A stretch of DNA of 64,000 nucleotides from Niastella populi (lineage in GTDB: Bacteria > Bacteroidota > Bacteroidia > Chitinophagales > Chitinophagaceae), in contig NZ_LWBP01000199.1 of assembly GCF_002078015.1 (NCBI RefSeq), positions 310,001-374,000 of the forward strand, written 5' to 3'. Within the stretch, counting starts at the first letter, position 1. Each line of letters begins with the position of its first letter. Positions 35,118 through 60,749 of the stretch are shown here, in pieces. The notes under the pieces are model-generated. The model saw only the letters and a program-made list of their open reading frames with translations. It searched no databases and had not been told where the DNA came from. A program made the position numbers and the translations under genes.

Positions 35118-35127
35118 ACTGTAACGT

Positions 35128-38241: not shown

Positions 38242-39717
38242 CTACGCCACCTCCTTACTCATCTTCGGCACATGCACCTTTATAGTACATCCATGCCCCT
38301 TGGAAGAGATCACTTCCAGTTTGCCGTCGAAGAGCTCTATGCGACTGAGGATATTGCTCAGTCCCACTCCTTTCCGGCGCTCCCGGGGATCAAAACCTTT
38401 ACCATCGTCCTCGATGTTCAGGTCAATAAAATCGTTCTTTTCAATTAATTCGATCTTCACATTGTGCGCCTGCGCATGTTTTATGATATTATTGAACTGT
38501 TCCTGTACAATACGGTAGAGGGCCAGCTGTTGTTGCGGACTGATATTCCTTAGCTGTTCCCTTTCGTAACTGAAATTGATAGCGAAGGGGTTTACCAGGC
38601 GAATGTTCTCAATAAGGTCCTGCACCGAATCTATGAGGCCGTTCTTGTCCATCACCGGCGGCACCAGCGATTTCGAGATCTTCCTGATCTCATTGATGGC
38701 CAGCTGCAGGTTGTTGATGCTGCGTTCCAGCAGTTCATCGCGCATATCTTCTTCCTGCATCGAAGCCTCGATATAGGCCTTTGTAACCGCCAGTATCTGG
38801 TTGATGTTGTCATGCAGCTCCCGCCCTATCTCCAGCCTTTCGCGCTCCTGGCTTTCGATGGAAGCCCGTACCAGTTTGCGCTGGTGCTCTTCACGCTCCC
38901 TGGCTATCTGGGCTGAATATCTGGCCAGCTGCGTTTCAACTGTTACTTTCTCCGTTATATCCTGGCAGGTGCCAATATAACTGATCACACCGTCTTTCCG
39001 TTTTACCGATCCCCGCCCTTCTATATTTTTTTCAACCCCGTGTTTGCTTACGATACGGAACTGTACCGGGGTAGCCGTTCCCTTTTCCAATGCCTCTTCC
39101 TGCGCTTTCATAACGATGTGTTTGTCATCGGTATGTACAAGCTGCATGAAAATCTCAAACGACAAAGGGGCATTGATCTCAAGGTCGAGGATCCGGAATA
39201 ACTCTTCCGAACAGGCGATCATTTCGCCCGACTCGCCTATTTCCCAGCTTCCGATCTTCGAGATCTTTTGCGCTTCGGCCAGCTGGCCTTCGCTTTTGCG
39301 CAGCTTCTGTTCTGCCTGGATCTTCTCCCGCCGTTCATTGGCTTCTTTAATGGCCCTTTTTATCTTGGGTATCACCGTAAACAGTTTATCCTTTATAGCG
39401 TAATCGGTAACCCCGTTCTTGATCAGTTCCACCGCGTTTTCTTCGCCGATGGTGCCTGAAACAATTATGAACGGTACATCCGGACAAATTTCCTGTTTAA
39501 TATTGAATGCCGATACGCCGTCGAATCCCGGCAACGAGTAGTCACTCAATATAACATCGGGTTTACAATCGAGCAATGCACTCCTGAATTGTTCTTTTGT
39601 TTCCACTATGGTTGGAACAAAATCCAGGGCGCCTTTCTTTAATTGGTACAACAACAGCTCGAGGTCGCTGTCGTCATGTTCGAGGATCAGTAGATTAATA
39701 CCTGGCACAGTTATCAT
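38242..39717 (-). CDS. Receiver-PAS-histidine kinase (HisKA_3/NarX-like)
   Basis: The 491-residue protein has a receiver domain first (about 7-125; acidic EHDD, phosphoacceptor Asp59 in ILSDYSLPG, Lys in AIKDK). A PAS domain follows (about 150-260, GSWEIGESGEMIACSEELFR). A HisKA_3 dimerisation helix carries His302 (ERLEIGRELHDNINQIL), and the HATPase domain has DDGKGFD and GVGLSNI. There is no membrane segment. The receiver-first layout suggests that a phosphorylated input tunes the kinase. It is the last gene of the minus-strand signalling run, 3 bp after the stand-alone receiver gene. Confidence 0.92.
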   Translation of the reverse strand: MITVPGINLLILEHDDSDLELLLYQLKKGALDFVPTIVETKEQFRSALLDCKPDVILSDYSLPGFDGVSAFNIKQEICPDVPFIIVSGTIGEENAVELIKNGVTDYAIKDKLFTVIPKIKRAIKEANERREKIQAEQKLRKSEGQLAEAQKISKIGSWEIGESGEMIACSEELFRILDLEINAPLSFEIFMQLVHTDDKHIVMKAQEEALEKGTATPVQFRIVSKHGVEKNIEGRGSVKRKDGVISYIGTCQDITEKVTVETQLARYSAQIAREREEHQRKLVRASIESQERERLEIGRELHDNINQILAVTKAYIEASMQEEDMRDELLERSINNLQLAINEIRKISKSLVPPVMDKNGLIDSVQDLIENIRLVNPFAINFSYEREQLRNISPQQQLALYRIVQEQFNNIIKHAQAHNVKIELIEKNDFIDLNIEDDGKGFDPRERRKGVGLSNILSRIELFDGKLEVISSKGHGCTIKVHVPKMSKEVA

Positions 39718-39720
39718 AAC

Positions 39721-40176
39721 TTACGATTGATAGGGTTGATTTAATATTAACCAGTAAAGGCCCATACAACTTACAGCCTTTATATAACTTTCAAATTCTA
39801 CGGGTTTAACTATGTAACTGTTTACCCCAAGCATATAGCTTTCCATAATATCCTTTTCTTCTTTTGACGAGGTAAGCAGCACAACGGGTATCATTCTGGT
39901 ACGTTTGTCCGATTTCAGCTTTCTTATCACTTCCAGCCCGTCTACTTTGGGCATTTTAAGGTCAAGGATGATCAGTCTTGGCAGGTCGGCTGCATTACGC
40001 CGGGCATACGCACCGGTGCAAAATACATAGTGCAGCAGTTGCTCGCCATCCTTTACATGGATCAGCGAACCGGCCAGCCCTTCTTTTGCAAGGGCGCGAA
40101 TCGTTAGCTCGGCATCGTCGGCATTGTCTTCACAGAGTACTATGTCTACTTTACCGGGGTTTGCATTTTCAATCAT
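39721..40176 (-). CDS. Single-domain response regulator (Rcp1-like)
   Basis: The 151-residue protein is a receiver only. It has the acidic pair CEDNADDAE, phosphoacceptor Asp72 in LIILDLKMPKVDG, the switch Thr in LLTSS and Lys in YIVKPVEF. It belongs to the Rcp1 type with the extended loop TGAYARRNAADLP, usually paired with phytochrome-like kinases. Its start overlaps the stop of the upstream kinase by 4 nt (ATGA), so coupled synthesis with that kinase is likely and it is its probable phosphate acceptor. Confidence 0.93.
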   Translation of the reverse strand: MIENANPGKVDIVLCEDNADDAELTIRALAKEGLAGSLIHVKDGEQLLHYVFCTGAYARRNAADLPRLIILDLKMPKVDGLEVIRKLKSDKRTRMIPVVLLTSSKEEKDIMESYMLGVNSYIVKPVEFESYIKAVSCMGLYWLILNQPYQS

Positions 40177-41672
40177 ATAGGAGGGTTATTGGTTTTTGGT
40201 AATGAGAAGTAAAAAACAGCGCCGTCACCGGGCTTTCCTTCAGCCCACACTTTTCCGCCATGTTTTACGATGATCCGTTGTACAATGGCCAGTCCTACGC
40301 CTGTTCCTTCAAATTCATCATTACTATGTAACCGTTGAAATACGCCGAATAACTTATGCGCATACTGCATATCGAACCCGGCGCCATTATCTTTTATATA
40401 ATACACAATTTCATCGTCTTTTTCTTCAGCGCCTATCTCAACTTCCGGGTTGTCTTTTTTAGCGGAATACTTTACCGCATTGGTGATAAGGTTGATGAAC
40501 ACCTGCGACAGCAATGCCGGATCGCCCTGTGTTCCGGGCAGCGAATGGAGCGTTATTTTCGTTTTTTCCGATGCCGTATGCCGTATGTCTGCGACGATCG
40601 GTTCTACCAGTTTTTTAAAATCGATGGCTACACGCGTAATGTCCTTGCGGCCCATACGCGAGAACTCGAGAAGGTCGTCAATAAGCGTGCCCATCTTCCG
40701 CGCATTGTTCCTGATCACATTCAACATGCGTTTGGCCTCGTCGTTGAAATCCTGCGCATGATCTTCCTGTATCATTTGTGCATAGCCATTAATACTGCGC
40801 AGCGGCGCCCGCAGGTCATGCGATACGGAATAGGAGAACGCTTCCAGTTCTTTATTGGTCAACTGCAGTTGGGCAACATTTCTTTCCAGGTTCTTATTCA
40901 ACTGGTTTATTTCAAAGTCGGCCTTTTTCTGGCGGGTGATGTCACGGCCATTGGCAAACCAGCTTTTGTTCTTATGCACCACGTTCCAGCTGAAATACCG
41001 CGGCTCATTGCTTTTGGTATACATCAACGCCTCAAATGAAAATGTGGGCGGGCATTGTTTTGCCAGTTGCTGCACCTTCCACTGACCGTCTTCCGACAAA
41101 TAAGTGAGCAATGAAGATCCCTTTATTTCCTGCGCGCTATACCCGAGGCGGTCGTACACTGCATCGTTCATTTCTTCTATGTGAAATGTTTTGCTGTTGA
41201 TGATGCAAATAAGGTCGGCCGAATTGTTGATCAATAACGCATAATTCTCCAGCGCCTGGTTCTTCTCCATCAACTCGCGTTGCTGGCGGTGCAATTGCAG
41301 CAACACATTTACCTTGGCCTCGGTGATCTCGGGGTTAAGCGGTTTCGCCAGGTAATCGATAGCCCCTTCTTCAAATCCTTTCAATACGAATTTCTGGTCT
41401 TTCAGTTCGGCCGTTACAAAAATGATAGGCGTTTCGCTGGTACGTTTGTTCGATTTCAGGATCTGCGCCACTTCAAACCCATCCATACCCGGCATTTGCA
41501 CATCGAGTATGATGAGGTCTATTTCCTGGTTCAGCGCAATTTTCAAAGCCTCATTACCGCTGGTAACGCTGATCAAATTACGGCCCGGCTGGTTCAGGAT
41601 CTGTTCCAGCGCATAAATGTTATTAACCTTATCGTCAACGATCAGAATATTATCTTCAGCCTGTTTTACCAT
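40173..41672 (-). CDS. Receiver-PAS-histidine kinase (phytochrome-type H-box)
   Basis: The 499-residue soluble protein has a receiver (about 7-125; Asp57 in LIILDVQMPGMDG, Lys110 in YLAKPL). A PAS domain (about 140-250, ADLICIINSKTFHIEEMNDA) is followed by a short coiled coil. The HisKA H-box is FSYSVSHDLRAPLRSINGYA with His285, of the bacteriophytochrome type. The HATPase domain has IKDNGAGFDM and GTGVGLAIVQRI. The adjacent Rcp1-like receiver, overlapping by 4 nt, is the likely partner. It lies 5 bp after the CheB gene. Confidence 0.93.
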   Translation of the reverse strand: MVKQAEDNILIVDDKVNNIYALEQILNQPGRNLISVTSGNEALKIALNQEIDLIILDVQMPGMDGFEVAQILKSNKRTSETPIIFVTAELKDQKFVLKGFEEGAIDYLAKPLNPEITEAKVNVLLQLHRQQRELMEKNQALENYALLINNSADLICIINSKTFHIEEMNDAVYDRLGYSAQEIKGSSLLTYLSEDGQWKVQQLAKQCPPTFSFEALMYTKSNEPRYFSWNVVHKNKSWFANGRDITRQKKADFEINQLNKNLERNVAQLQLTNKELEAFSYSVSHDLRAPLRSINGYAQMIQEDHAQDFNDEAKRMLNVIRNNARKMGTLIDDLLEFSRMGRKDITRVAIDFKKLVEPIVADIRHTASEKTKITLHSLPGTQGDPALLSQVFINLITNAVKYSAKKDNPEVEIGAEEKDDEIVYYIKDNGAGFDMQYAHKLFGVFQRLHSNDEFEGTGVGLAIVQRIIVKHGGKVWAEGKPGDGAVFYFSLPKTNNPPI

Positions 41673-41677
41673 CCTGA

Positions 41678-42256
41678 TTATTTTTTTATAAGCGCCAATA
41701 AATACCGGCTTATCTCATCGGGCGTCATAATATGGCGCACATAACCCGTATTGATAGCCGCTTTCGGCATATCGGCATAATCGGCAGTTTCGGGCGACTG
41801 TGCAATGGTAACGCCGCCCCGCATACTGATCTTCCTGATACCCGCGGCGCCATCATTGTTTGCGCCGGTTAAAATGATACCCAGCAGCCGTTCTTCGAAT
41901 ACATCCGCCGCCGTTTCGAACAATACATCTATCGACGGACGGCTGAAATTTACCGGCGCGTCAAAACTTAGGGAAAAGGTGCGGTCATTTTCGATCAGCA
42001 AATGATAATCGGGCGGTGCAAAATACACGACGCCGTTTTCAATTGCCTCTTTTTCATCGGCCTGTTTTATCCGTACCTTACATTTTTGTTGCAGCACTTC
42101 TTCAAGCAGGTTCCGCTCATCCTTTGCGCGGTGCTGCACCACCATTATCGGCAAAGGAAAGGCAGCCGGCAATGGTTGCAAAATTCGGGTCATCGCATAC
42201 AAACCGCCGGCAGAAGCCCCGATCACAATTGCATGGTACTCATTTTTATCCTCCAT
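41678..42256 (-). CDS. cheB: CheB-type protein-glutamate methylesterase domain protein
   Basis: The 192-residue protein is the CheB catalytic domain alone, without the usual receiver. Ser15 is in VIGASAGG, His42 in VVQHRAKDE and Asp135 in LTGANNDGAAGI, so the catalytic triad is complete. The canonical GMGxDG loop reads GANNDG. It would remove methyl esters (or deamidate Gln) on a target protein. No MCP is encoded in the window. The gene lies between CheR (16 bp) and a receiver-kinase (5 bp) in the kinase run. Lack of the receiver means that its activity is not directly gated by phosphorylation on the same chain. Confidence 0.93.
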   Translation of the reverse strand: MEDKNEYHAIVIGASAGGLYAMTRILQPLPAAFPLPIMVVQHRAKDERNLLEEVLQQKCKVRIKQADEKEAIENGVVYFAPPDYHLLIENDRTFSLSFDAPVNFSRPSIDVLFETAADVFEERLLGIILTGANNDGAAGIRKISMRGGVTIAQSPETADYADMPKAAINTGYVRHIMTPDEISRYLLALIKK

Positions 42257-42272
42257 GTGACAGTTACCCGTT

Positions 42273-43085
42273 CTATTTTATTTTCATAAATATTTTTTCT
42301 TTTTTATCGATCTCTTCAAAACACTTTTGCTTATCGGCAAACAATAACGACTCCTTATTGCCCAGCCCCAGAAAACCAAAAGGGCATAAACTTTCGTAGA
42401 ACAGGTCGATCACTTTGTTTTGGAGGCTCTGGTTGAAATAAATGAGCACATTGCGGCAAAGGATCAGTTGAAACTCGTTGAACGATTTATCCATGGCCAG
42501 GTTATGTACGGAGAAAACAATATTCTGCCGTAATGATTTATCCCAAAGCACCGAATTGTATTTAGCCTTGTAATAATCGGAAAATGAATTTTTGCCGCCT
42601 GCCTTTATGTAATTCTCAGTATAATTTTTCATATTACTGATGGTTGAAAGCCCGTCTTTGGCCTTTTGAAGGGCATCCTGGTTGATGTCGGTGGCATAGA
42701 TCACCGTTCTCTCCAGCAACCCTTCCTCACGCAGCAAAATGGCCATGCTGTATACTTCTTCGCCGGTACTGCAACCGGCTATCCATACTTTTATGAACGG
42801 GTACGTAGCCAGCCGGTTCACCACATTTTTACGCAGGCTTTTGTAAAACTGCGGATCACGGAACATTTCGGTAACGTTTACCGTGATCTCCTGTATAAAA
42901 TGCTCAAATGCCGCCTCGTCTTTCATCACCAATCTGCCCAGCTCTTTCAAGCCGCCGATCCTGTTCGTTTCCATGAACGAACGTATGCGGCGAATCACCG
43001 ACGCCTCTGCATATTCCGTAAAATCGTACCCGTATACGAACCGTACCGATTCAAGGAATTGTCTGTATTCTTCATTGGCAATCAT
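42273..43085 (-). CDS. cheR: CheR-type protein-glutamate methyltransferase
   Basis: The 270-residue protein has the helical N-terminal domain (SVIRRIRSFMETNRIGGL) and the SAM-binding domain. NVTEMFRDP is the CheR signature, VWIAGCSTGEEVYSMAI binds SAM, YATDIN holds the acidic ribose ligand and ILCRNVLIYF is the final motif. It transfers methyl groups from SAM to Glu side chains of its target. It sits directly upstream of CheB and downstream of the large hybrid kinase (144-bp gap holding a 7-bp repeat). It is a paralogue of the CheR at 59934. Confidence 0.94.
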   Translation of the reverse strand: MIANEEYRQFLESVRFVYGYDFTEYAEASVIRRIRSFMETNRIGGLKELGRLVMKDEAAFEHFIQEITVNVTEMFRDPQFYKSLRKNVVNRLATYPFIKVWIAGCSTGEEVYSMAILLREEGLLERTVIYATDINQDALQKAKDGLSTISNMKNYTENYIKAGGKNSFSDYYKAKYNSVLWDKSLRQNIVFSVHNLAMDKSFNEFQLILCRNVLIYFNQSLQNKVIDLFYESLCPFGFLGLGNKESLLFADKQKCFEEIDKKEKIFMKIK

Positions 43086-43102
43086 TAGTAAAATGCTTGT
43101 TA

Positions 43103-43192
43103 CAGGTTTCAGGTACCAGGTTACAGGGAAAATACCCGTAATAAAATCCTATTATACACCCTGCAGCCTGTAACATATAACCTGAAACTGAT
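43103..43192. repeat. Inverted pair of 7-bp-period arrays (CAGGTTA / CCTGTAA)
   Basis: CAGG starts at 43103, 43110, 43117 and 43124 in exact 7-bp register. On the other side CCTG starts at 43160, 43167 and 43181, plus a degraded copy near 43188, again with period 7 and in the complementary sense. The element fills the gap between the hybrid kinase stop (43230) and the CheR start (43085). Confidence 0.7.
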
Positions 43193-43229
43193 AGTTTGTT
43201 TATTTTTAAAAACTATTTTTCGAAATGGT

Positions 43230-46200
43230 TTACCCATACAACCATACCCGCATCAGCGACAGCAACTGCTCAATATTCACCGGTTTTGAAATATAATCGC
43301 TCATACCGGCTTCGAGGCATTTTTCACGGTCGCCTTTCATCGCTTTTGCCGTTAGCGCAATGATAGGCAGCCTGTCGAACTGCTCCATTTTACGAATGGC
43401 CATGGTTGCTTCATAACCATCCATTTCGGGCATCATAACATCCATCAAAACGATCTCTATACCGCTGTGTTTGTTCAGCATCTCGATGGCTACCCTGCCG
43501 TTCTCGGCCACATAACACTTCATACCTTCCTCTTCGAGCACATTGGTAAGCGAATAAATATTGCGCATATCGTCATCGACGATCAGTACTTTTTTGCCTT
43601 TCAGGACCTCTTCGGCACGATGCAGTTTGCGAATGATCTGTTGCTTTTCCCGGGGCAGCTTCGATTCAACCCGGTGCAGGAACAGCGCCGTTTCATCGAG
43701 CAGTCTTTCTTTCGAATTGGATGTTTTCAGAACAACCGTATTGGCCAGCTTTTCGAGTTTCCGCGCTTCTTCCCTGCTCATGTCGCGGCCGGTATATACG
43801 ATGATGGGAATACGGTTCAGTTCATCGCTCTCTTTTATTTTTTCCATCAGCTCGAAACCGCTCATATCGGGCAGCCCGAGGTCGATGATGATACAATCGA
43901 ACTTTTCATCCTGCAACATATTATAGGCTTCATGCCCCGTGTAAGCGGCAAAGGATTTTATATCGCCATTGCCGATCAGTTCGCGAATGGCTTTGTTGTG
44001 CTGCGGGTTATCTTCCACCACCAGCAGTTTTTTCAGCTTGCGGTTCATGAAATCTTCTATGCGGTCGAATGCGCCCTGCACGGCCTCATGCGTTAACGGT
44101 TTCCTGATGAAATCAAATGCGCCCAGTTCAAGCCCTTCCTTGCGCCGGTCGTACCCCGATATGATCTGTACCGGTATATGCCGCAGATCCGGATCGTTCT
44201 TCATCAACCGTAATACTTCGGAACCATCCAGCACCGGCAGCTTCATATCGAGTATAATGGCGTCGGGCCGGTAGTACCGCGCCAGGCTAAGCCCTGTATT
44301 GCCCTGGTGGGCCATAATGCCCTTGTATCCTTTTTGCCGGGCAATATCAAGCAGGATCCGCGCAAACGATTCATCATCTTCTATGATGAGAATGGTTTTA
44401 TCCGTTTCCCTGATCTGATAACGGTCATCCTCCGCCTCTTTCTGCGGTGATGGCACATGTTCAGGTATCACAGCTTCCGCCTCTTTTACTATGGGTTTCC
44501 TGATCTCGATATTTTTTTCACCGCTGATAACCCCGGCCGCATCAAACTGCAGCGGCAGGTACAGGGTGAACGTACTGCCTTTCCCCTCGGCACTGGCCAA
44601 ATGAATTTCACCGCCCAGGGCGCCGGCCAGTTCGCGGCTTATCGATAAGCCCAAACCCGTACCGCCGAATTTGCGTTTGGTAGAACCGTCGGCCTGCTGG
44701 AACGCTTCAAAAATGATACCCTGCTTGCTTTCGGGGATACCGATACCCGTGTCGGAAACCGAGAACACCGCTACCTGTGGCAGCCGGCGTAATTTTTCAT
44801 TTCGAATAGATACATCAGGCGTTTGTACATCTATGGTAACTGTAATATTGCCATCGCGGTCGGTGAACTTGAACGCGTTCGACAACAGGTTGCGCAGGAT
44901 CTGCTCGAGCCGCTGCCGGTCGGTAAAGATGGGTGAAGGAAAATGTTCGTCATTGCAGTTTATCTGAAACCCGATATTCTTGCTGCGCGCTAATTCGGTA
45001 AATGTCTGGCTGAGGCCCTGGCAGATCTCATTTACCGGAACCGGCTCGATCTCGATCTCTATTTTACCGGCTTCCACTTTCGACAGGTCGAGTATTTCGT
45101 TGATGAGGTTCAACAGGTCGGTACCCGAGTTATGGATATTCGAAGCGAACTCTATATCTTTTTGCGTTAACGTCTGATTTTTGTTTTCAGTAAGCAACTG
45201 TGACAATATCAGGATACTGTTCAGCGGCGTGCGCAGTTCGTGGCTCATATTGGCCAGAAATTCCGATTTGTACTTGCTGGTAGCTTCCAGTTCTTTTGCC
45301 TTGCTCTCCACTTCTACTTTGGCCAGTTCCAGCTTCTCCTTTTGTTCTTCCAGCAGGTTCGCCTTTTCTTCCAGCTCTTCGTTGGTTTGCTGCAGTTCTT
45401 CCTGCTGCGCCCGCAACTCGGCCTCCGACTTTTCAAGCATCACCGTCTTTTCTGATAACTCTTCGTTGGTTTGTTTCAGTTCTTCCTGCTGCGCTTCCAG
45501 CTCCTCCGACTGGCGCTGGGTCTCTTCCAGCAATTCTTTCAGCCTGGCCCTTGACTGTGACGAATTAAAAGCTATACCAATACTTTCCGAAACGATCTTC
45601 ATAAGTTGAAGATCGAGGTCGGTAATTTCCCGTACCGACCCTACTTCAATTATACCTTTCACAGAACCATCATACATGAAAGGGTATATAAGAATATTTT
45701 TTGGGGTCGACTGGCCAAGGCCCGAGTTGACTTTTACATAATCTTCGGGAACGTTGGTAAATACGATCGGCTTTTTTTCGAGAGCGGCCTGCCCTACCAG
45801 TCCTTCACCCAGTTGAATAATACTGTTATTTATGCTCCGGTGTGAAAATGCATAACTGCTTATCAATTCAAGATGCTCGTTTTCGGCCAGGTAAATGGCG
45901 CCCACCTGTGCCTTCAGGTAAGGCGTAAGCATATTGACCACCTGCTGACCCAGTTCACGCACCGGTTTTTCGCCCCGCAAAATATCGTTCAGTTCACTGG
46001 CGCCTACCAGCATCCAGGTACGCTCGGCGTTTTCATTCGATAACTTTAGCAGGCTGTCTTTCATATTGGTAAGGGCTTTGCCCAATACGTCGGCTTCACT
46101 GCGAATAATGACAGCGGGAGTATAGTCGCCTTTTGCAATCGTTTCGGCCACACCGGTATATTCTTCAGAGGCGGCTATAAGTTTGTTGAAAGCATCAGCC

Positions 46201-47273
46201 AGATCGCCAATTTCATCTTTGGAGAATATCGGAACGGTTAGTTCTGTTTCACCACGTGTTATGCGTTCGGCAGCCGTTTGTATCACCCGCAGCGGATCAA
46301 CAATGGAACGGATAACAAGGAATAACAACACCGAAATAAAAACGATCACCAGTACTACGCTGATCACCGCCCAGCTCAACGCTTCACTGATAGCCGCCTG
46401 TTTATTCAACGCCAGCTGGCGGGTTTCGAAGGTTGACTGGTTCTCCAGTTTCTTCAACCCGTTCAGGTATTCGGTAACGTTCATTCGCCAGGTGTCTTTA
46501 GGCATGGTAGCTACCAAACCAGGATCTTTAAAAACCGAATCGATCAGCTTTTTGGTCAATGCAACAGCCGGGTTGTTAAGCAGGGTATTGAAAGCAGCCA
46601 GTTGCGCAGGCGGTGCATTTTTATAATAGCGGTCGATATTGTTTTCGAACTTTCCGCGCAGCCTCGCAAATTCGGCATGTTCCATATTACGAAATCCCTT
46701 ATCTACCAGTGCAAGATGCAGGTGCATCCTGATCTGGCCTAAATATCCTTTTGCGGTTAACAGGTACAGGTGCGTTTCTATCAGGTTCCTGATCTCGGGG
46801 TCACGTACATTACGATAAGTTATATTCGCATCATCCAGTAACATTATGCTCATGATGGCATATCTCCTGGCCAGCGTGTCAGTGTTCAATGTCAATTGAT
46901 TGATGCCGTTGCGTACATCGGGCAAAATGCCCAGTGAGGAGAGGTCTTTATTCTTTTTTTGTTCTGTCAGCAACTGTTTGAAGGCGGAAATGGCTTTATC
47001 GGTTTCAACCCGCTGCATCAGCATTTCGGCTTTTTCATCCTTACCGCCACTGCCGGCATAAGAGATTGAAAAGCCACGTTCTTCCATCAGGTTGTGAATG
47101 ACATCAGATATGCGTTCAATTTCAAACACATCATTATATACGCGGTGAATATTCCTTTTTTTGGCAAGTTTGTCCATTACATCTACGGCCAGAAAATACA
47201 CCAGGGCGGCCAGCGGGATGAGGGAGACAAGCAGTAATTTGTTCCTGATCGACAGGTTTCGGATATATTTCAT
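43230..47273 (-). CDS. Hybrid histidine kinase: NIT-HAMP-GAF-coiled coil-HisKA-HATPase-REC x3
   Basis: The 1347-residue membrane kinase has TM1 (about 12-32) and a periplasmic NIT-like helical sensor (about 45-285) with VIHNLMEERGFSISYAGSGG. TM2 (about 300-322), HAMP (to about 410) and GAF (about 425-570) follow. A heptad coiled coil spans about 578-668 with repeated QEEL/NEEL/SEEL units. HisKA carries His678 (ANMSHELRTPLNS), and the HATPase domain runs to about 912. Three receivers have Asp1009, Asp1131 and Asp1278. NIT domains in other bacteria sense nitrate/nitrite; the ligand here is unproven. The Glu-Glu pairs every seven residues resemble MCP methylation helices. It heads the CheR/CheB run. 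Confidence 0.92.
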   Translation of the reverse strand: MKYIRNLSIRNKLLLVSLIPLAALVYFLAVDVMDKLAKKRNIHRVYNDVFEIERISDVIHNLMEERGFSISYAGSGGKDEKAEMLMQRVETDKAISAFKQLLTEQKKNKDLSSLGILPDVRNGINQLTLNTDTLARRYAIMSIMLLDDANITYRNVRDPEIRNLIETHLYLLTAKGYLGQIRMHLHLALVDKGFRNMEHAEFARLRGKFENNIDRYYKNAPPAQLAAFNTLLNNPAVALTKKLIDSVFKDPGLVATMPKDTWRMNVTEYLNGLKKLENQSTFETRQLALNKQAAISEALSWAVISVVLVIVFISVLLFLVIRSIVDPLRVIQTAAERITRGETELTVPIFSKDEIGDLADAFNKLIAASEEYTGVAETIAKGDYTPAVIIRSEADVLGKALTNMKDSLLKLSNENAERTWMLVGASELNDILRGEKPVRELGQQVVNMLTPYLKAQVGAIYLAENEHLELISSYAFSHRSINNSIIQLGEGLVGQAALEKKPIVFTNVPEDYVKVNSGLGQSTPKNILIYPFMYDGSVKGIIEVGSVREITDLDLQLMKIVSESIGIAFNSSQSRARLKELLEETQRQSEELEAQQEELKQTNEELSEKTVMLEKSEAELRAQQEELQQTNEELEEKANLLEEQKEKLELAKVEVESKAKELEATSKYKSEFLANMSHELRTPLNSILILSQLLTENKNQTLTQKDIEFASNIHNSGTDLLNLINEILDLSKVEAGKIEIEIEPVPVNEICQGLSQTFTELARSKNIGFQINCNDEHFPSPIFTDRQRLEQILRNLLSNAFKFTDRDGNITVTIDVQTPDVSIRNEKLRRLPQVAVFSVSDTGIGIPESKQGIIFEAFQQADGSTKRKFGGTGLGLSISRELAGALGGEIHLASAEGKGSTFTLYLPLQFDAAGVISGEKNIEIRKPIVKEAEAVIPEHVPSPQKEAEDDRYQIRETDKTILIIEDDESFARILLDIARQKGYKGIMAHQGNTGLSLARYYRPDAIILDMKLPVLDGSEVLRLMKNDPDLRHIPVQIISGYDRRKEGLELGAFDFIRKPLTHEAVQGAFDRIEDFMNRKLKKLLVVEDNPQHNKAIRELIGNGDIKSFAAYTGHEAYNMLQDEKFDCIIIDLGLPDMSGFELMEKIKESDELNRIPIIVYTGRDMSREEARKLEKLANTVVLKTSNSKERLLDETALFLHRVESKLPREKQQIIRKLHRAEEVLKGKKVLIVDDDMRNIYSLTNVLEEEGMKCYVAENGRVAIEMLNKHSGIEIVLMDVMMPEMDGYEATMAIRKMEQFDRLPIIALTAKAMKGDREKCLEAGMSDYISKPVNIEQLLSLMRVWLYG

Positions 47274-52000: not shown

Positions 52001-53184
52001 AGCCCGCCCCCGTTGGTGCCGATCCACAGGTTGCCTTTGGCATCTTCTACAAAGCGGTTCACATCGTTGTAGGGCAAACTGGCGCCGGCGGTTGCATCGT
52101 GCCGGTATAAAGGGAATTGAATAATACTTTCGTGATAATAGTTAATGCCCTGTTTAAATGTTCCTATCCAAAGGATCCCCAGGTCATCTTTATACAGGTC
52201 GGTGAGGCTGTTCATGGAAAGGCTGCCGCTATTACCGGGTTCATTCAACAGCACCTGTACGCTCATGTTCCTTTTATTGAGAATATTGAGCCCGCCATGA
52301 TCGGTTGCTATCCATAAAAGCCCTTTGTTGCCCTCAGCCACATCTAAAATGATATTGCTGCTGAGAACGGCGGTGCCTTCATTGCTGGCAACCTGCTGTA
52401 TCGTATTGCCGGCGGGGTTATGCCGGTAAATTCCATTTACAATACCGCTGCCAAAGATCCATTGATCGTTCTGCGAATCGATAAACAACCGGTAATTGAA
52501 TTTACCGCTGCCCTGTTTTTGCTGCAGCAGTTTACTTTGGCCGATCGCTTTTTTGGTTCCGCCGTCATATTGCTCAATAAGCCCATTGCAATAAACAACC
52601 CAGATGTTATTTTTAGAATCGGTTCTTACATCGGCAATTACATTTACCTCGCGGGTAGTGTTGTTGATAATGGATAGTACCGGTCTGTTCTCTTCGAAAT
52701 AGTAAATACCCAGATCGCGGTAAACGAATAAATACCCTTTGTGAAAAGGAACGATATCGGTTAACCCGTAGCCGGGCAATCCATGTCTTTGCAAATATTT
52801 GTCAACGGCCCGGTCAAATTTCTCCGTTGCGGGATCGTAGATATTAAAACCAACTCTCGTTTCAATCCACAAATTGTTATAGGGGCCGGCTATGATCTTT
52901 GAAATAAAATCATCGATAAGAGAGGTAGTATCCTGAATGGAGTGCCGGAAAGACTTAAAAGTGTAGCCATCGAAACGATTCAATCCGCTCATGGTGCCAA
53001 ACCACATGAACCCTTTTGAGTCTTTGTAAATGCAATTTATCTGGTTATTGGAAAGTCCCTGGTTGAAATCGAGGTGAGCAAAATGATAGGGAGTTGGCTG
53101 TTGGGCCTGCAACAAAACGGCAAAAACGATACATACAGGCAGTACAACCAATTTTCTGGCAACAGATTTAAGGAACAGCAGCAT
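49060..53184 (-). CDS. Hybrid two-component system regulator (HTCS): propeller-Y_Y_Y-HK-REC-AraC
   Basis: The 1374-residue one-chain system has a signal peptide (to about 28) and two seven-bladed Reg_prop propellers (about 35-690, with repeats of the type NLWIGTxxGGL). A Y_Y_Y domain (about 720-803) precedes the TM (about 813-831). HisKA carries His869 (TNVSHEFRTPLSL), and HATPase spans about 965-1085. The receiver (about 1121-1235) has Asp1170, and the AraC/HTH_18 domain is at about 1275-1370 (VAYETGFNNPKYFSRYFK). HTCS proteins bind glycan fragments in the periplasm and activate neighbouring polysaccharide loci. No such locus adjoins it here, so its target lies outside the window or is one of the SusC/D sets. 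Confidence 0.95.
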   Translation of the reverse strand: MLLFLKSVARKLVVLPVCIVFAVLLQAQQPTPYHFAHLDFNQGLSNNQINCIYKDSKGFMWFGTMSGLNRFDGYTFKSFRHSIQDTTSLIDDFISKIIAGPYNNLWIETRVGFNIYDPATEKFDRAVDKYLQRHGLPGYGLTDIVPFHKGYLFVYRDLGIYYFEENRPVLSIINNTTREVNVIADVRTDSKNNIWVVYCNGLIEQYDGGTKKAIGQSKLLQQKQGSGKFNYRLFIDSQNDQWIFGSGIVNGIYRHNPAGNTIQQVASNEGTAVLSSNIILDVAEGNKGLLWIATDHGGLNILNKRNMSVQVLLNEPGNSGSLSMNSLTDLYKDDLGILWIGTFKQGINYYHESIIQFPLYRHDATAGASLPYNDVNRFVEDAKGNLWIGTNGGGLIYFDRRNNTFKQYRHNAANDNSLSNDVIVSLLIDHANVLWIGTFFGGLDSYDGKTFTHHRHNDKDSNSVSDNRIWEIYEDHNNDLWIGTLESGLEKYDRANNRFIHYKPMAPGSVHMGYVSDIAEDSQGNLWVGTSYGIDVLNRKTGVFTQMLGRETKLSNDNIISIFKDSGGRMWVGTRDGLNLYNPQKNTFRVFRKEDGLPDNTILNIVEDNAHDLWVSTPNGISRISCIGDRSQPGISCINYDRADGLQGKEFNENAALKTRNGELVFGGPNGFNLFNPANLKYSTRAPKVVFTGLQVFNRHIAPGDKIRSQVILQKAIAETETINLRYDENIFSIEFAALGYINTQKNKYAYRLQGFNNNWLYTDGRERKATYTNLDPGKYTLYVKASNDQGVWNEQAVAVNIVVLAPFWQTPLAYLLYILAAVAVLFFARRVVIQQTKMRFALEQERKEASRIRELDQMKTRFFTNVSHEFRTPLSLILTPLERMIRTDGEPARHAQYQLIHRNARRLLNLVNQLLDFRRMEVHELKLHTTAGDMAQFIEETAGSFTDIAEKKQIRFSYSASLKNLYTHFDHDKLERIIFNLLSNAFKFTPENGTVSVEVNMVGNGETASLAITIKDSGIGIPASRHEKIFERFFQHDVPGTMVNQGSGIGLAITREFVNLMGGAISVESEEFKGSVFTVVLPVKEVKTVVVAPAVNGAIATTAENVTDMTIQAASGKKEHTVLLVEDNEDFLFYLKDNLREYFNIAEAVNGREGWQKTLSVHPDIIVSDISMPAMNGIELCGKIKQDPRTKHIPVILLTALTCEEQQLQGLETGAADYMTKPFNFEILVSKIKNLLRQQQSFKQAFTKQVAVKTTDVPVENPNEKFVQDALAIVEKNIGNSDFSVEELSRALLLSRAAVYKRLFVLTGKTPIEFIRTLRLQRAAQLLEKTNMTVAEVAYETGFNNPKYFSRYFKTEYGKLPSAYQSEIKKGVS

Positions 53185-54162: not shown

Positions 54163-54587
54163 AAATTTTGTCAAAAGGCGGTTAAAGGTTGAAAAGGCCA
54201 ATAAGACCGTTAAAATAGCAATTAGTAAACACAAAGGCGAATAGAACCGGGTATCGTTACAGGCAAATGCCGTTTTTGTGTTTTTTTTAAAGGACCGGCT
54301 CCCGGCGCGGCATCATATTAAAATATGGCTTTAAGTGTTTGTAACACAATAACCGGTCGCAGATTAATATGCATTTAAAAACAACCGCAATTTGAAGTAA
54401 ACAACCGGGAAAATCCTTTCTTTTGTGGATTTTTTTACCCTTGATTGTGTGGAATGTGGATTGCAACTTATATCAGCTATAGCTGTCACAGCCATACGAG
54501 TTAGTCATTACACAGGCTAATAGACATTTGTAGAGGGATCCGAGGTACAAATAATTAAATATTTTAATAACAACAGGAATTGTTCAT
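54163..54587. other. Gene-free divergent spacer with nested palindromes
   Basis: The spacer separates the SanA-like gene (minus) from the right-hand signalling operon (plus). CAGCTATAGCTG (54474-54485) is a perfect 12-nt palindrome. It overlaps GCTGTCACAGC (54482-54492), a second palindrome with one central base. They lie about 100 bp before the first receiver gene and could be a regulator site. A TACCCTTG box near 54436 resembles a -7 element but lacks a good -33 partner. Confidence 0.4.
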
Positions 54588-55043
54588 ATGACTCACCCCC
54601 GTAGTTTTTTACTCGTCGATGATGACATCGACGATATTCTTATTTTCCAGGAAACGCTGAAGAAGGTAGATGAAAAAATTCAACTCTTCTACGTTCATGA
54701 CGGAAAAGACGCGCTTGATTTTCTTGCAGAAAATAACGGGCATTTGCCAAGCCTTATTTTCCTCGACATCAACATGCCCCGGATGGACGGCAAGGAGTGC
54801 CTGAAACACCTGAAGCATGATGAAAAATTAAAAAACATTCCTGTGCTTATGTACACCACTTCTTCTCAGTCGACAGACATTGAAGAAACCATGATGACGG
54901 GCGCTATGTGTTTTATAACAAAACCATGGGGAGTTAATGAGCTGAATACCCTGTTGTCGGCCATTGCCCATACACCTGTTCAAAAACTACCGGCCACCTT
55001 ACAAACGCTTCAAAAGAACATAAGCTGCTTTATTGTTTGTTAG
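54588..55043 (+). CDS. Single-domain response regulator
   Basis: The 151-residue receiver has the acidic cluster LLVDDDIDD, phosphoacceptor Asp60 in LIFLDINMPRMDG, Thr/Ser in YTTSS and Lys in ITKPWGV. No output domain follows; the last 30 residues are a Gln/Thr/Leu tail ending in FIVC. It is the first gene of the plus-strand signalling operon, 17 bp before a receiver-kinase gene that could be its phosphodonor. Confidence 0.92.
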   Translation: MTHPRSFLLVDDDIDDILIFQETLKKVDEKIQLFYVHDGKDALDFLAENNGHLPSLIFLDINMPRMDGKECLKHLKHDEKLKNIPVLMYTTSSQSTDIEETMMTGAMCFITKPWGVNELNTLLSAIAHTPVQKLPATLQTLQKNISCFIVC

Positions 55044-55060
55044 CATATTTCTGATTTGTT

Positions 55061-56308
55061 ATGATCCTCATCGTTGATGATAAATACGAAAATCTGTTCT
55101 CATTAAAAACATTACTGCAACTCTACGCTTATGACACCGATACGGCCGCTTCCGGCGAGGAAGCCCTGAAAAAAATACTGAAGAACGAATATTCCGTAAT
55201 CATCCTCGATGTGCAGATGCCCGACATGGATGGCTATGAAGTAGCGGAAGCCATTTCGGGCCTTAACAAAACCAGGGACATTCCCATCATCTTCCTGTCG
55301 GCGGTAAATATCGATAAACGCTTTATTGCAAAAGGGTACGATTCCGGCGGGGTCGATTATATTACCAAACCCTTCGATAACGATCTTTTATTGATGAAAG
55401 TAAAAACCTTTCACCGGCTGTATACACAACGCCAGGAACTGAAGCAGGTGGAAGAGGCGCTGCGCCGGGAAATAGAGATCAGGAAAAAATCGCAGCAGGA
55501 AGTAGAGCAGATCAACTCCCTGCTTGAATTCAAGGTAGAAGAAAGGACCAGGGACCTGTTGCAGTTAAATAAAGATCTCGAGAACCGGAATGCCGAACTG
55601 GCGCAATATGCGTACCTGGCCTCACACGACCTGCAGGAGCCCTTGCGCAAGATCATTACCTTTATAAAGATCATAGAAGAAAAATACCTGAAAAATATTC
55701 CGGAAGCAAAAACCGAAATGTCGAAGGTGATCACCTCCTCGGAAAGAATGAGGAACCTGATCAACGCCCTTCTGAGCTATTCGAAATTATCGGCTGTTTC
55801 CCTGTTTACCCCGGTAAATGTAAATGAAGTGGTAAAAGACGCACTGGCCGACCTGGAACTGACCATAAAAGAAAAACAGGCCCTCATCGATGTAACTCAT
55901 TTGCCCGAAATAGAAGCCATTCCCGGACAAATGCGTCAAATGTTTCAGAACCTGCTGAGCAATGCGTTGAAGTTCTCGAAAACCGGGGTTCGTCCGCAAA
56001 TAAACATCTGCCACGAAGCGGTAAATGAATTGTCACTTGAAGCTGCACCCGATAAGAACGGAAAGTTTATCCGTATTCATATCACCGATAATGGCATTGG
56101 CCTCGATGAGTCGTATATCGACAAGATCTTCGTGATCTTCCAGCGACTGCATGGCAAAGCACAATACGAGGGCACCGGCATCGGGCTGGCCATTGTAAAA
56201 AAGATCGTTGAAAAACACAACGGCATCATTGGCGTAAAAAGCAGGGAAGGCGAAGGATCCACGTTTACGATCGTACTTCCGGTAAAACAAAGCAACAGTA
56301 CAAACTAG
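55061..56308 (+). CDS. Receiver-histidine kinase
   Basis: The 415-residue soluble protein has a receiver (about 1-118; Asp50 in VIILDVQMPDMDG, Lys103 in ITKPFD), a coiled coil (about 122-180) and a HisKA H-box YLASHDLQEPLRKI with His189. The HATPase domain shows ITDNGIGLDE and GTGIGLAIVKKI. The H-box is the phytochrome/cyanobacterial type, as in the kinase at 40173. It resembles that protein with its PAS domain missing, consistent with the two clusters being related. Confidence 0.93.
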   Translation: MILIVDDKYENLFSLKTLLQLYAYDTDTAASGEEALKKILKNEYSVIILDVQMPDMDGYEVAEAISGLNKTRDIPIIFLSAVNIDKRFIAKGYDSGGVDYITKPFDNDLLLMKVKTFHRLYTQRQELKQVEEALRREIEIRKKSQQEVEQINSLLEFKVEERTRDLLQLNKDLENRNAELAQYAYLASHDLQEPLRKIITFIKIIEEKYLKNIPEAKTEMSKVITSSERMRNLINALLSYSKLSAVSLFTPVNVNEVVKDALADLELTIKEKQALIDVTHLPEIEAIPGQMRQMFQNLLSNALKFSKTGVRPQINICHEAVNELSLEAAPDKNGKFIRIHITDNGIGLDESYIDKIFVIFQRLHGKAQYEGTGIGLAIVKKIVEKHNGIIGVKSREGEGSTFTIVLPVKQSNSTN

Positions 56309-56339
56309 CGTTTCAATCAACAATAATATTTCTAAAAAG

Positions 56340-59300
56340 ATGAATGCTTTCAAGCGTAATCTCATCATTGGTTATGGTATCTCGCTGTTACTGCTTATCA
56401 TCAGCGCTGTAGCGTCGTACATCAGTATCAACAAACTGTTGAGCAGTGCCAAATGGGTAAACCATACCAATGAAGTACAGAAAAAGGTGGAAAAGGTAAT
56501 AGCCGGCCTGGTTGATGCCGAAACCGGCCAGCGGGGTTACCTGCTTACCGGAAAACCGCAGTTCCTCGATCCCTATAGCGGCGCCGTTGACCGTACAACC
56601 GTCCTGTTAAACGAAGTAAAGAATCTTACCAAAGACAATATATTGCAACAACAGGATTGCGATCTTTTGAAGGAACAGGCAGTTACCCGCCTGAATTTCC
56701 TTGGGGAACTGGTGCAGAAAAAAAAGAACGATGAGCCCATTTCAGATAGCCTGATGGTGCTTGGAAAGAGGTATATGGATAGCGTACGCGTAATTGTAAA
56801 ACGCATCCAGGGCCGCGAAGTAGCATTGTTGAAGATCAGGACCCAGAACATGAACCGGTTCGCTGCCAGTACCCCAACGCTCATTATTATTGCCATGCTG
56901 CTGGGAATCGTAGTAACCATTATTTCATTTGTACGGGTATTGAACGATTATGAAAAAAGAGCGGCGCTGCAGGTGGAATTACAGGAGAAGGATGAACAGA
57001 TCTCGAGGCGGATCACCCTTATCAATGAGGTGGCAACCGAGATCTCGGGCGGTAATTACGAGGTAAAAGTTGAAGACACAGGCGCTGACGCCCTTGGGGG
57101 CATTGCCGGTTCGTTAAACAGGATGACCGAAGCGCTGAATTTCTCCTTCACGAACCTGAAAGACCAGCAATGGCTGCAAACCGGCGTGGCCCAGTTGAAC
57201 GAAAGCATGATCGGGAAAAAGGAACTGGAAATACTCACCTACGACGTCATAGAATTTATTACCGGTTATACCAGTTCAATACAGGGCGCTTTTTACTTAC
57301 GGGTAGATGAAGATGAATTGCAACTGGCCGCCGGTATTGGTTTCAGTAAAAAGGAACGCCCCAAAATTCATTTTGGGGAAGGTGTGGCCGGACAATGCGC
57401 CCAATCGGGCCGGCAGATCCATCTTGAAAATATACCCGATGCCCAGGTAGTGCTCGATTACACGGGCGGTTCAATTAAACCGGTAGCAATAGTGGCATTG
57501 CCTGTATTCTACGAAAGCCGGCTGAAGGGCGTTATCGAGATCGCTTCCATGCAACCCTATTCTTCCGTGGCACTCGACTTTTTACGGGTGGCAGGTTTCA
57601 ATATCGGCATGGCCATCCACAGCGCCCGCGACCATCAGCGTTTACAGGAACTGCTGGCAGAAACCCAGGCGCAATCGGAAGAACTGCAGGCACAACATAC
57701 CGAACTAGAAAATATAAATGCCGAACTGGAAGCCCAGGCGGAACGTTTACAAACCAGCGAAGAAGAACTGCGGGTGCAACAGGAAGAACTGCAGCATGCC
57801 AACCAGGAACTGGAAGAAAGAAGCCGTTTGCTGGAAGAGAAAAATGAATTGATCCTCGAGCGCAATCTCGAGATCCAGGCGCGCGCCGAAGAACTTACGC
57901 AAAGCACCAGGTATAAATCGGAATTCCTGGCCAATATGAGCCATGAACTGCGCACCCCGCTGAATTCAATTTTGTTATTGTCGCGCCTGCTCACCGAAAA
58001 CCATCCCAACAATTTAACCAGCGACCAGGTTGAATATGCGACTGTAATTCAAAGCTCGGGCAAGGGACTATTAACGCTTATCGATGAAATACTTGACCTC
58101 TCAAAAATAGAGGCCGGCAAAATGGAACTGGAGTATACCGATATCCGTATTAATGAACTTACGAATGAACTGCAATCGTTATTCGCACCGCTCGCTACTG
58201 AAAAAGGCATTGAATTTACCATTGAACAGGAAGACGATCTGCCGCTTTCCATCGAAACCGACCGTTTGCGGCTCAACCAGATCTTACGCAACCTGCTTTC
58301 AAACGCACTGAAGTTCACCAAAAAAGGTTCCGTAAAACTGAGCATTCAAAAGAAAGGCGCCGACTTCTGGTTCACCGTCAGGGATACCGGTATTGGTATT
58401 GCACCTGAGAAACAGGCCATTATTTTTGAAGCGTTTCAACAGGCAGATGGCAGCACCCGCAGGCAGTATGGAGGCACCGGTCTCGGCCTTTCCATCAGCC
58501 GCAAACTGGCTCAATTGCTCAATGGTGAGATCACCATTACGAGTGAAGTGAATAAAGGCAGTGAATTTACGCTGATCTTACCGGCGCTGAAGATCGATAC
58601 AATTCAACAACCTGCCGTTACCGGTGAAGTGCCGGTTCAAAAAGAGCCGGCTGAAAAAACAAGTATTCCATTACCCTTGCGCGATAGCGAATTCTTATCA
58701 CCCGTTATCCCCTCTCCTGTTGATGACGACCGCAGCGCCATCGCCGCCGGGGATAAGGTAATACTGATCATCGATGACGACACGGCGTTTGCCAAATCCC
58801 TGCTCAACTATACCCGGGCAAAAGGATATAAGGGTATTGTAGCCGTACGCGGCGATGAAGGTATAGCCCTCGCCAAACAATACCTGCCGCTGGGTATTTT
58901 GCTCGATCTGCAATTACCTGTTGTCAGTGGCTGGCAGGTAATGGATGAATTGAAATCAGATGTGAATACCCGGCCAATACCGGTGCATATCATGTCGGCC
59001 TACCAGGCAAAAACAAAGAGCCTTTCAAAAGGCGCCGTTGATTTCATCAATAAACCGGTGGCATTTGAAAAGCTGGGCGAAATGTTCTCGAAGATCGAAA
59101 GCGCATTGAACCGCCATCCGAAAAAAGTGCTGATCGTTGAAGAGAACACGCAACATGCCCGGGCGCTTGCCTACTTCCTCGAAAATTACAATGTGGCTTC
59201 CGAAATAAGAGATTCGGTAGAAGAAGGTATTAAATCGCTCAACAAACAGGAAGTGGATTGTGTGATCCTCGATATGGGTATACCCGCACAACGCTCGTAT

Positions 59301-59924
59301 GATACACTGGATGAAGTGAAAAAAACACCCGGGCTGGAAGAAGTGCCTATCATTATTTTTACGGGCAAGAACCTGTCGCAGAACGAGGAAGTAAAAATAA
59401 AACAGTATGCCGATTCGATAGTGGTGAAAACCGCTCACTCGTATCAGCGCATACTCGATGAAGTGTCATTGTTCCTGCACCTTGTTGAAGAGAACCGGAA
59501 CGAGGGCCGTGGGTACAGGCGTACCCGCAAGACGGAAGCGGGCGAAGTGCTGAAAGGGAAAACAGTGCTGGTAGTAGATGATGATGTGCGCAATATTTTC
59601 TCCCTGAGCAAATCGCTGGAGAGTTATGGAATGAATGTCATATCGGCCATCGACGGCAAAGAAGCATTGCGGCAGTTGGAAACGCATACCAGGGTAGATA
59701 TGGTGCTGATGGATATGATGATGCCTGAAATGGATGGATATGAAACAACAAAACAATTGCGGAAAATGCCTAAATACCGGAGCCTGCCGGTGATAGCGGT
59801 AACCGCCAAAGCCATGACGGGCGACCGCGAAAAATGTATTGCGGCAGGCGCATCAGATTACATAACCAAACCGGTTGATGTAGACCAGCTCATTTCCCTG
59901 TTACGCGTTTGGCTTTATCAATAA
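56340..59924 (+). CDS. Hybrid histidine kinase: CHASE3-HAMP-GAF-coiled coil-HisKA-HATPase-REC x3
   Basis: The 1194-residue membrane kinase has TM1 (about 8-30) and a CHASE3-type periplasmic domain (about 35-178) with VDAETGQRGYLLTGKPQFLD. TM2 (about 179-200), HAMP (to about 270) and GAF (about 285-430) follow. A heptad coiled coil spans about 432-525 with repeated SEEL/EEEL/QEEL units. HisKA carries His535 (ANMSHELRTPLNS). HATPase runs to about 752. Three receivers have Asp856, Asp978 and Asp1125. The second receiver has Glu-Glu (VEEN) in place of the usual acidic pair. From GAF onward it is a paralogue of the kinase at 43230. CheR follows 9 bp downstream. Confidence 0.93.
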   Translation: MNAFKRNLIIGYGISLLLLIISAVASYISINKLLSSAKWVNHTNEVQKKVEKVIAGLVDAETGQRGYLLTGKPQFLDPYSGAVDRTTVLLNEVKNLTKDNILQQQDCDLLKEQAVTRLNFLGELVQKKKNDEPISDSLMVLGKRYMDSVRVIVKRIQGREVALLKIRTQNMNRFAASTPTLIIIAMLLGIVVTIISFVRVLNDYEKRAALQVELQEKDEQISRRITLINEVATEISGGNYEVKVEDTGADALGGIAGSLNRMTEALNFSFTNLKDQQWLQTGVAQLNESMIGKKELEILTYDVIEFITGYTSSIQGAFYLRVDEDELQLAAGIGFSKKERPKIHFGEGVAGQCAQSGRQIHLENIPDAQVVLDYTGGSIKPVAIVALPVFYESRLKGVIEIASMQPYSSVALDFLRVAGFNIGMAIHSARDHQRLQELLAETQAQSEELQAQHTELENINAELEAQAERLQTSEEELRVQQEELQHANQELEERSRLLEEKNELILERNLEIQARAEELTQSTRYKSEFLANMSHELRTPLNSILLLSRLLTENHPNNLTSDQVEYATVIQSSGKGLLTLIDEILDLSKIEAGKMELEYTDIRINELTNELQSLFAPLATEKGIEFTIEQEDDLPLSIETDRLRLNQILRNLLSNALKFTKKGSVKLSIQKKGADFWFTVRDTGIGIAPEKQAIIFEAFQQADGSTRRQYGGTGLGLSISRKLAQLLNGEITITSEVNKGSEFTLILPALKIDTIQQPAVTGEVPVQKEPAEKTSIPLPLRDSEFLSPVIPSPVDDDRSAIAAGDKVILIIDDDTAFAKSLLNYTRAKGYKGIVAVRGDEGIALAKQYLPLGILLDLQLPVVSGWQVMDELKSDVNTRPIPVHIMSAYQAKTKSLSKGAVDFINKPVAFEKLGEMFSKIESALNRHPKKVLIVEENTQHARALAYFLENYNVASEIRDSVEEGIKSLNKQEVDCVILDMGIPAQRSYDTLDEVKKTPGLEEVPIIIFTGKNLSQNEEVKIKQYADSIVVKTAHSYQRILDEVSLFLHLVEENRNEGRGYRRTRKTEAGEVLKGKTVLVVDDDVRNIFSLSKSLESYGMNVISAIDGKEALRQLETHTRVDMVLMDMMMPEMDGYETTKQLRKMPKYRSLPVIAVTAKAMTGDREKCIAAGASDYITKPVDVDQLISLLRVWLYQ

Positions 59925-59933
59925 AAAACACCT

Positions 59934-60749
59934 ATGATCAAAGAGGAAGAGCTGAATATGCTGATCGCTACCCTGTTCGAACAATATGGTTATGATTTTG
60001 GCAACTATGCAAAAGCCTCGCTCAAACGAAGAGTGAGCCGGGTAATGGTCGTAGACCGCATCCCCAGTTTTGCCGAGCTGTTATATAAAGTAAAGACCGA
60101 AGAGGGGTATTTCAATCATATTGTGCAGGAGCTAACGGTGAATGTAACGGAAATGTTCCGCGACCCGATGGTGTTTAAAGCCATCAGGGAACACATACTG
60201 CCTGTACTGGCCACTCACCCGTTCATCAGGATCTGGCATGCGGGGTGTTCAACCGGCGAGGAGGTTTATTCAATGGCCATTATGCTCGAGGAAGCCAACC
60301 TGTTGCATAAATCGCTGCTTTATGCAACCGATCTGAACCCTACCGTAATTGAGAATATAAACCGGGGCATTTTTCCGTTGTCGCAAATGAAACAGTATTC
60401 AGAAAACTACATAGCCTCGGGCGGCAAGAAAGATTTTTCGCATTATTATACCGCTAAATACGACTGGGCAAAATTCCACGACCGCTTCCGCACAAAAATG
60501 GTGGTGGCCACGCATAACCTCGCCTCTGACCGGTCGTTCAATGAATTTCAGATCATCATTTGCCGCAACGTACTTATTTACTTTGACAAGGTGTTGCAGG
60601 ATAAAGTGCTTACCCTGTTCGATAACAGCCTCGAAAAACTGGGTTACCTGGTGCTCGGCTCAAAGGAAAGCCTGCGGTTCTCAGCCGTTGCCGGTAAATA
60701 CACGCAGGTAACACAAAAAGAAAAGATCTGGCGAAAAATGGACCGCTGA
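59934..60749 (+). CDS. cheR: CheR-type protein-glutamate methyltransferase
   Basis: The 271-residue CheR has the helical N-domain (SLKRRVSRVMVVDRIPSF), signature NVTEMFRDP, SAM loop WHAGCSTGEEVYSMAI, acidic YATDLN and IICRNVLIYF. It shares nearly every motif with the CheR at 42273. It follows the hybrid kinase by 9 bp, so the two are coexpressed. No CheB accompanies it; the only methylesterase in the window is at 41678. Its stop lies 2 bp from the stop of the convergent kinase gene. Confidence 0.94.
   Translation: MIKEEELNMLIATLFEQYGYDFGNYAKASLKRRVSRVMVVDRIPSFAELLYKVKTEEGYFNHIVQELTVNVTEMFRDPMVFKAIREHILPVLATHPFIRIWHAGCSTGEEVYSMAIMLEEANLLHKSLLYATDLNPTVIENINRGIFPLSQMKQYSENYIASGGKKDFSHYYTAKYDWAKFHDRFRTKMVVATHNLASDRSFNEFQIIICRNVLIYFDKVLQDKVLTLFDNSLEKLGYLVLGSKESLRFSAVAGKYTQVTQKEKIWRKMDR

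Follow-up and report, generated by a model that had tools for sequence, protein, structure and literature searches.

The 64,000-nucleotide stretch of Niastella populi DNA analyzed here (the window) carries genes for the chemotaxis-type enzymes CheR and CheB beside large hybrid histidine kinases, and it raises the question of what these enzymes modify when no chemoreceptor is encoded nearby. On comparative sequence grounds, and with a probability of roughly 0.6, we propose that adjacent CheR and CheB reversibly methylate the signalling coil of the kinase, which would amount to adaptation in the style of methyl-accepting chemotaxis proteins (MCPs) directly on a histidine kinase.

Gene content of the window and of the genome

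The genes under study form two runs (Table 1). On the minus strand, the first run is ordered kinase 1, CheR, CheB, REC-PAS-HK, REC and REC-PAS-HisKA_3; on the plus strand, the second is ordered REC, REC-HK, kinase 2 and CheR. Pfam matches agree with the two CheR and one receiver-less CheB that a sequence-only reading had assigned to the window, the N-terminal receiver domain of canonical chemotaxis CheB being absent from the window CheB by Pfam. Its placement of the two hybrid kinases also held: each adjoins a CheR gene on the same strand, and in each the GAF and HisKA domains are separated by a long coil. The HAMP match of kinase 2 falls slightly under its Pfam cut-off, and among the NCBIfam matches listed for the kinases, CheR and CheB, all were below model cut-offs. 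In the tree, kinase 1 lies closest to a kinase of Niastella (84% in the core). CheR 2 is 49% identical to CheR 1 and has no CheB behind it, its operon lacking a CheB of its own. Between both runs, positions 49060-53184 encode a one-protein system with a Reg_prop/Y_Y_Y sensor, HisKA, HATPase, REC and an AraC-type HTH. Two gene pairs of a TonB-dependent receptor-like and a SusD-like gene lie at 17444-22599 and 31875-36552, and a FecR gene lies at 30103-31350.

Table 1. Positions of the two gene runs, the coils and the coil-less kinase in the window
Feature	Position	Strand	Remark
REC-PAS-HisKA_3-HATPase kinase	38242..39717	-	Pfam; closes first run
Single-domain response regulator	39721..40176	-	First run
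REC-PAS-HisKA-HATPase kinase	40173..41672	-	Pfam
CheB methylesterase (192 aa), lacks receiver domain	41678..42256	-	PF01339, 7.7e-59
CheR 1, 270 aa, directly following kinase 1	42273..43085	-	PF01739, 2.2e-38, and CheR_N
Hybrid kinase 1, 1347 aa, NIT-HAMP-GAF-coil-HisKA-HATPase-REC x3	43230..47273	-	Pfam
Coil of kinase 1, residues 586-662	45288..45518	-	11 Leu/Val heptads, EEL in 5
Single-domain response regulator, opens second run	54588..55043	+	
REC-HisKA-HATPase kinase	55061..56308	+	Second run
Hybrid kinase 2, 1194 aa, CHASE3-(HAMP-like)-GAF-coil-HisKA-HATPase-REC x3	56340..59924	+	Pfam
Coil of kinase 2, residues 443-519	57666..57896	+	11 Leu/Ile heptads, EEL/QEL in 5
CheR 2, 271 aa	59934..60749	+	Next to kinase 2
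Third hybrid kinase, coil-less internal negative	60752..63865	-	Convergent with second run

The lack of MCP and CheW genes noticed in the window extends to the whole genome (8.6 Mb, 263 contigs, 100% complete), where zero matches were obtained genome-wide to either the MCP domain (PF00015) or the CheW domain (PF01584), both of which gave matches in control genomes. The accompanying claim that CheA is missing stands indirectly, since a genome with no CheW-domain match presumably has no standard CheA. CheR occurs five times in the genome, as the two solo genes of the window and in three CheB-CheR fusions, and CheB four times, of which one is solo. All five CheR are tied to a Glu-pair coil, two by adjoining a kinase and three by fusion; in the three fusions, NEEL-type heptads follow straight after CheR in chains of 7, 5 and 7. 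A genome without MCP or CheW matches would suit the view that CheR and CheB are remnants of a chemotaxis system that has been lost and have no present substrate, but the gene order is conserved across phyla, even in genomes with many MCPs, and we hold this explanation to be extremely improbable.

The coil and its glutamates

Signalling helices sit between sensor and HisKA domains. The window coils are like them in keeping a fixed heptad register with HisKA but are longer, with a repeated Glu at position c. Each consists of 11 consecutive heptads ending in Leu, Val or Ile, of which 5 of 11 read EEL or QEL, and the longest uninterrupted run of these is three. About 12 consecutive xxxxEEL or xxxxQEL heptads had been claimed from the sequence; the long coil stands, and the claim of some 12 Glu-Glu heptads is rejected on this count. 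The length of the Glx-pair run was likewise discarded as evidence, because shuffles of the same composition reach it often (2514 of 20000 coil shuffles for kinase 1 and 8797 of 20000 for kinase 2) and composition accounts for such runs. A run of [EQ]E[LMIVA] heptads is rarer, being reached by 139 and 111 of 20000 coil shuffles, respectively.

The third hybrid kinase of the window contains zero [EQ]EL and no long heptad array before HisKA, as had been stated. Arrays of at least eight Leu/Ile/Val/Met heptads right before HisKA occur at only 4 of the genome's 81 HisKA places, namely in kinase 1, kinase 2 and the kinases C261:4292 and C211:3518. The coil of C261:4292 is nearly the same as the window coils and ties with kinase 1 in its [EQ]EL count, and that of C211:3518 is a weaker case. 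The contigs of these two kinases gave no CheR match; contig C261 is 13.3 kb long, so that the surroundings of its kinase are short.

One heptad register relative to HisKA is common to all 77 coil rows that were compared, among which some kinases appear twice. A start resembling xxLLxET was seen in 41 of the 69 CheR-linked rows, and over the next three heptads of these 41, Glu occupies position c in 38, 40 and 37 rows (all three in 35) and position b in 38, 27 and 25. Of the exposed residues of the coil, the Glu at c is the most conserved. Over all heptads, the Glu fractions at c, b, e and f are 0.60, 0.45, 0.40 and 0.24 in linked coils and 0.56, 0.39, 0.37 and 0.19 in unlinked coils; since linked and unlinked coils are alike in Glu make-up, the contrast between them resides in pairs more than in composition. 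When residues 430-740 of kinase 1 were modelled as one chain, a single helix (552-696) ran through the coil into HisKA, with a mean pLDDT of 86 and values of 89-95 in the coil.

MCPs are typically methylated on the second residue of a pair, at heptad position c, according to PMC6829392, and in that register the coils carry Glu or Gln at c as the second residue of the pair. The likeness to MCPs therefore includes Glx-Glx pairs every seven residues on a helical coil as well as CheR and CheB as partners. The differences are that the window coil feeds its own HisKA, that the MCPsignal domain (PF00015) is not among the Pfam hits of kinase 1 or kinase 2 and CheW is absent from the genome, and that the strict site consensus, [ASTG]2-x2-[EQ]2-x2-[ASTG]2, is matched nowhere in the three window kinases or in the genome's three fusions. 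The half motif [EQ]2-x2-[ASTG]2 is present in the fusion coils. With zero matches, the consensus was dropped as an argument for membership.

As for the enzymes, the CheR_N and SAM-binding CheR domains exceed their Pfam cut-offs, and the best PDB sequence match of CheR 1 is 5ftw, a chemotaxis methyltransferase from Bacillus subtilis. The catalytic domain of CheB aligns with 1chd and keeps the S/H/D motifs in its GASxGG, QH and NDG stretches; the CheB triad and the catalytic residues presumably lie among the aligned motifs of the two enzymes. CheR and CheB might instead only dock on the coil, or catalyse on another partner such as the REC-HK, without coil methylation. Binding alone would suffice for the association with the coil, and REC-HK genes adjoin CheR/CheB in most of 28 loci fetched by CheR (see below), but both enzymes align with solved ones over their motif stretches and Glu is kept at the position that is methylated in MCPs, and we regard this alternative as quite improbable.

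CheR linkage and Glu pairs in other genomes

Within the window's phylum, a survey of 148 genomes with the kinase 1 core as the query (E<=1e-60) gave 23 matches in 16 genomes. CheR is present in all 15 of these besides the N. populi genome, and 12 of the 15 are MCP-less. The 13 MCP-less genomes (these 12 and N. populi) contain 29 CheR, 15 solo and 14 fused, a weak match (G108:C3, E 7.6e-5) being excluded, and 28 of the 29 are associated with four or more [EQ]E-hydrophobic heptads. Each of the 15 solo CheR adjoins a kinase that has four or more of these heptads in register, a result biased towards the coil because the genomes were picked by kinase. The fusions were not picked for the coil, and in 13 of 14 a chain of 4-7 such heptads, with one miss allowed, follows CheR; the exception, L155, has two. 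In the three MCP-bearing genomes, the 98 residues that precede HisKA contain no [EQ]E[LIMV] in any of the matching kinases (3/3), which lie some 7 kb away from a solo CheR.

When loci of the genome collection were fetched by CheR, 27 of the 28 obtained had a coil kinase upstream and the other began at a contig end. Among 15 of these genomes that were examined, MCPs are absent in 9 and present in 6. Over all 31 genomes that carry this type of kinase or its CheR, 22 have no MCP (N. populi, 12 of 15 and 9 of 15). Loci L168 and L169, in two genomes of the window's phylum, have the order CheR-CheB-kinase, with CheR upstream and the coil retained. In Nitrospinota (L104:9122-10486), CheR and CheB matches share one open frame, which lies downstream of a coil kinase and is truncated by the contig end. 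For the coil kinases of L213, L086 and L087, the assembly gives a split or unreadable frame.

The second phylum, that of G162 (Geobacter locus L105), was surveyed in 198 genomes with the kinase 2 core as the query (E<=1e-55). This gave 65 kinases in 56 genomes, all of which were fetched with 7 kb per side where the contig allowed. CheR lies near 25 of the 65, on the same strand and unfused; L211 and L213 were dropped from the linked set because their coils were unreadable, leaving 23 of 25. At least three [EQ]E heptads were present in 20 of the 23 readable linked kinases vs 6 of 40 unlinked ones (Fisher p=2e-8), or 4 of 34 unlinked ones if at least 4 kb downstream had to be visible. The linked exceptions are L258, with one [EQ]E heptad, and L202 and L209, with two each. 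A coil equally common without linked CheR/CheB, which would count against the proposal, was looked for and not seen in these figures, among the HisKA places of the N. populi genome or in the ORF scan below.

Open reading frames (ORFs) were also scanned in 212 fetched regions, 3840 distinct ORFs after removal of repeats; the regions had been fetched for kinases or CheR and so are no random genome sample. A chain of at least four [EQ]E[LIMV] heptads was found in 32 of the 3840; kinases 1 and 2 of the window fall short of this mark, their chains numbering only three. CheR is in the same chain in 13 of the 32 and within 1.5 kb in 14, and the remaining five (L216, L218, L219, L221 and L223) are without it; in these five the kinase frame is at a contig end, so that one flank is unseen. 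Those five are among the unlinked kinases that retain pairs, together with the kinase on C261 of the N. populi genome, L205, whose frame has a stop, and L129 and L138 from Caballeronia. In a tblastn search with kinase 2, 230 plasmid records were matched; among 25 plasmid regions taken, CheR adjoins the kinase in 15 and is found nowhere within 5 kb in 10. Two Caballeronia kinases, each with no CheR in its region, keep 4 and 3 [EQ]E heptads.

A quick tree was made of 117 kinases, which remained from 126 after a 90% identity filter. The set left out L211, L213, the second kinase of L092, all L094 and L103 rows, and unlinked rows with less than 4 kb downstream (L216, L221, L246, L247, L248 and L257). 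In the scoring of linkage, L124 was treated as unlinked although a CheR fusion is found 5.7 kb off on the other strand. Minimum changes on this tree are at least 13 for CheR linkage and at least 14 for the state of three or more [EQ]E heptads. Six independent pairs could be drawn on supported branches, of which 2.3 were concordant, 1.1 opposite and 2.5 without difference, which is not significant. Phylogenetic regression on the midpoint-rooted tree gave a slope of 1.45 (p=8.7e-6), and 1.17 (p=0.0012) for the 90 coil-bearing rows alone. These two analyses disagree, the former being low-powered and the latter model-dependent; the comparative case is strong by counts and weaker by independent events.

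Such a tree bears on whether the coil is an ordinary Glu-rich signalling helix whose CheR linkage reflects descent within one kinase clade, the CheR substrate being elsewhere. Most CheR-linked kinases in the tree are indeed of common ancestry, and the non-significant pairs test, the high frequency of Glu at position e as well, the overall similarity of unlinked coils and the unlinked kinases that retain pairs all point this way. Against descent, a Glu-pair coil is also found in a different architecture, where it follows CheR in the CheB-CheR fusions counted above, and the regression is still significant. Linkage also varies within a clade (support 85) whose 15 kinases are mostly long and HAMP-annotated and in which five CheR-linked members, three from Deinococcus and two from the second phylum, have 3, 3, 3, 2 and 4 [EQ]E heptads vs 1 to 3 in the ten unlinked members. 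We consider descent alone an unlikely explanation.

Known systems and the proposed mechanism

The operon type is already in print as the Pseudomonas putida cfcABCDE cluster. As described in the accessible text of PMC4951495, this is a five-gene cluster with the hybrid kinase CfcA first, CfcB and CfcC are CheR/CheB, CfcA is required for the diguanylate cyclase CfcR, and the CheR/CheB homologues are cited as having no part in chemotaxis; the crinkle phenotype persisted in mutants of the remaining cfc genes, by the authors' unpublished statement. That text contains no mention of CfcA methylation, and 'methylat' occurs in it once, in a reference. The window's first run similarly clusters a hybrid kinase, CheR, CheB and further genes, and CfcA, a CHASE3/GAF hybrid kinase in the abstract of PMC6849547, resembles kinase 2 by this description. 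The CheB-CheR-PAS(-kinase) fusions, three of which occur in the genome, share the Glu-pair heptads after CheR and differ in having enzymes and coil in a single chain.

No proposal that CheR methylates a histidine kinase was found among the open-literature papers listed, as judged by titles and abstract starts; subscription papers were mostly outside the search, and priority is therefore not established. The accessible portions of PMC6363813, PMC12125118, PMC10767990, PMC3447774 and PMC6391922 contain no proposal of histidine kinase methylation, and CheR as a whole word is absent from the HmrABCX paper.

According to our proposal, CheR would methylate, and CheB demethylate, position-c Glu residues on the GAF-HisKA coil of the neighbouring hybrid kinase. 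The charge change at these exposed residues could shift the coil between signalling states, as in chemoreceptors, and the shift may reset kinase output under a lasting stimulus, that is, produce adaptation. In CheB-CheR-PAS fusions, the target of the two enzymes would be the coil of their own chain. We infer all three of coil methylation, its effect on kinase activity and the resulting adaptation. Action of CheR/CheB on the kinase coil, as first suggested by the sequence-only reading, is the best-supported of the readings and putative: the 28 of 29 CheR, the contrast of 20/23 vs 6/40, the position-c Glu and the missing MCPs favour it, whereas the inflated heptad count, the unmatched consensus, the non-significant pairs test, some unlinked coils, the three linked kinases with few pairs, the second operon's lack of a CheB and the crinkle phenotype retained in P. 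putida weigh on the other side. A wider generalization, that methyl-accepting hybrid histidine kinases and self-acting CheB-CheR fusions are widespread in several phyla, with a coil tuned by reversible Glu methylation, strikes us as an even bet.

If true, the proposal would give CheR and CheB a substrate in receptor-less genomes and would account for CheR/CheB pairs that have no role in chemotaxis. It would also make receptor-style methylation memory possible in two-component kinases. As a separate observation, at L074 (G000:C1:536000-546000) a 504-aa protein (7417-8931), which by eye is phytochrome-type photosensor-like, is encoded directly upstream, on the same strand, of a CheB-CheR-PAS-kinase fusion (3279-7412).
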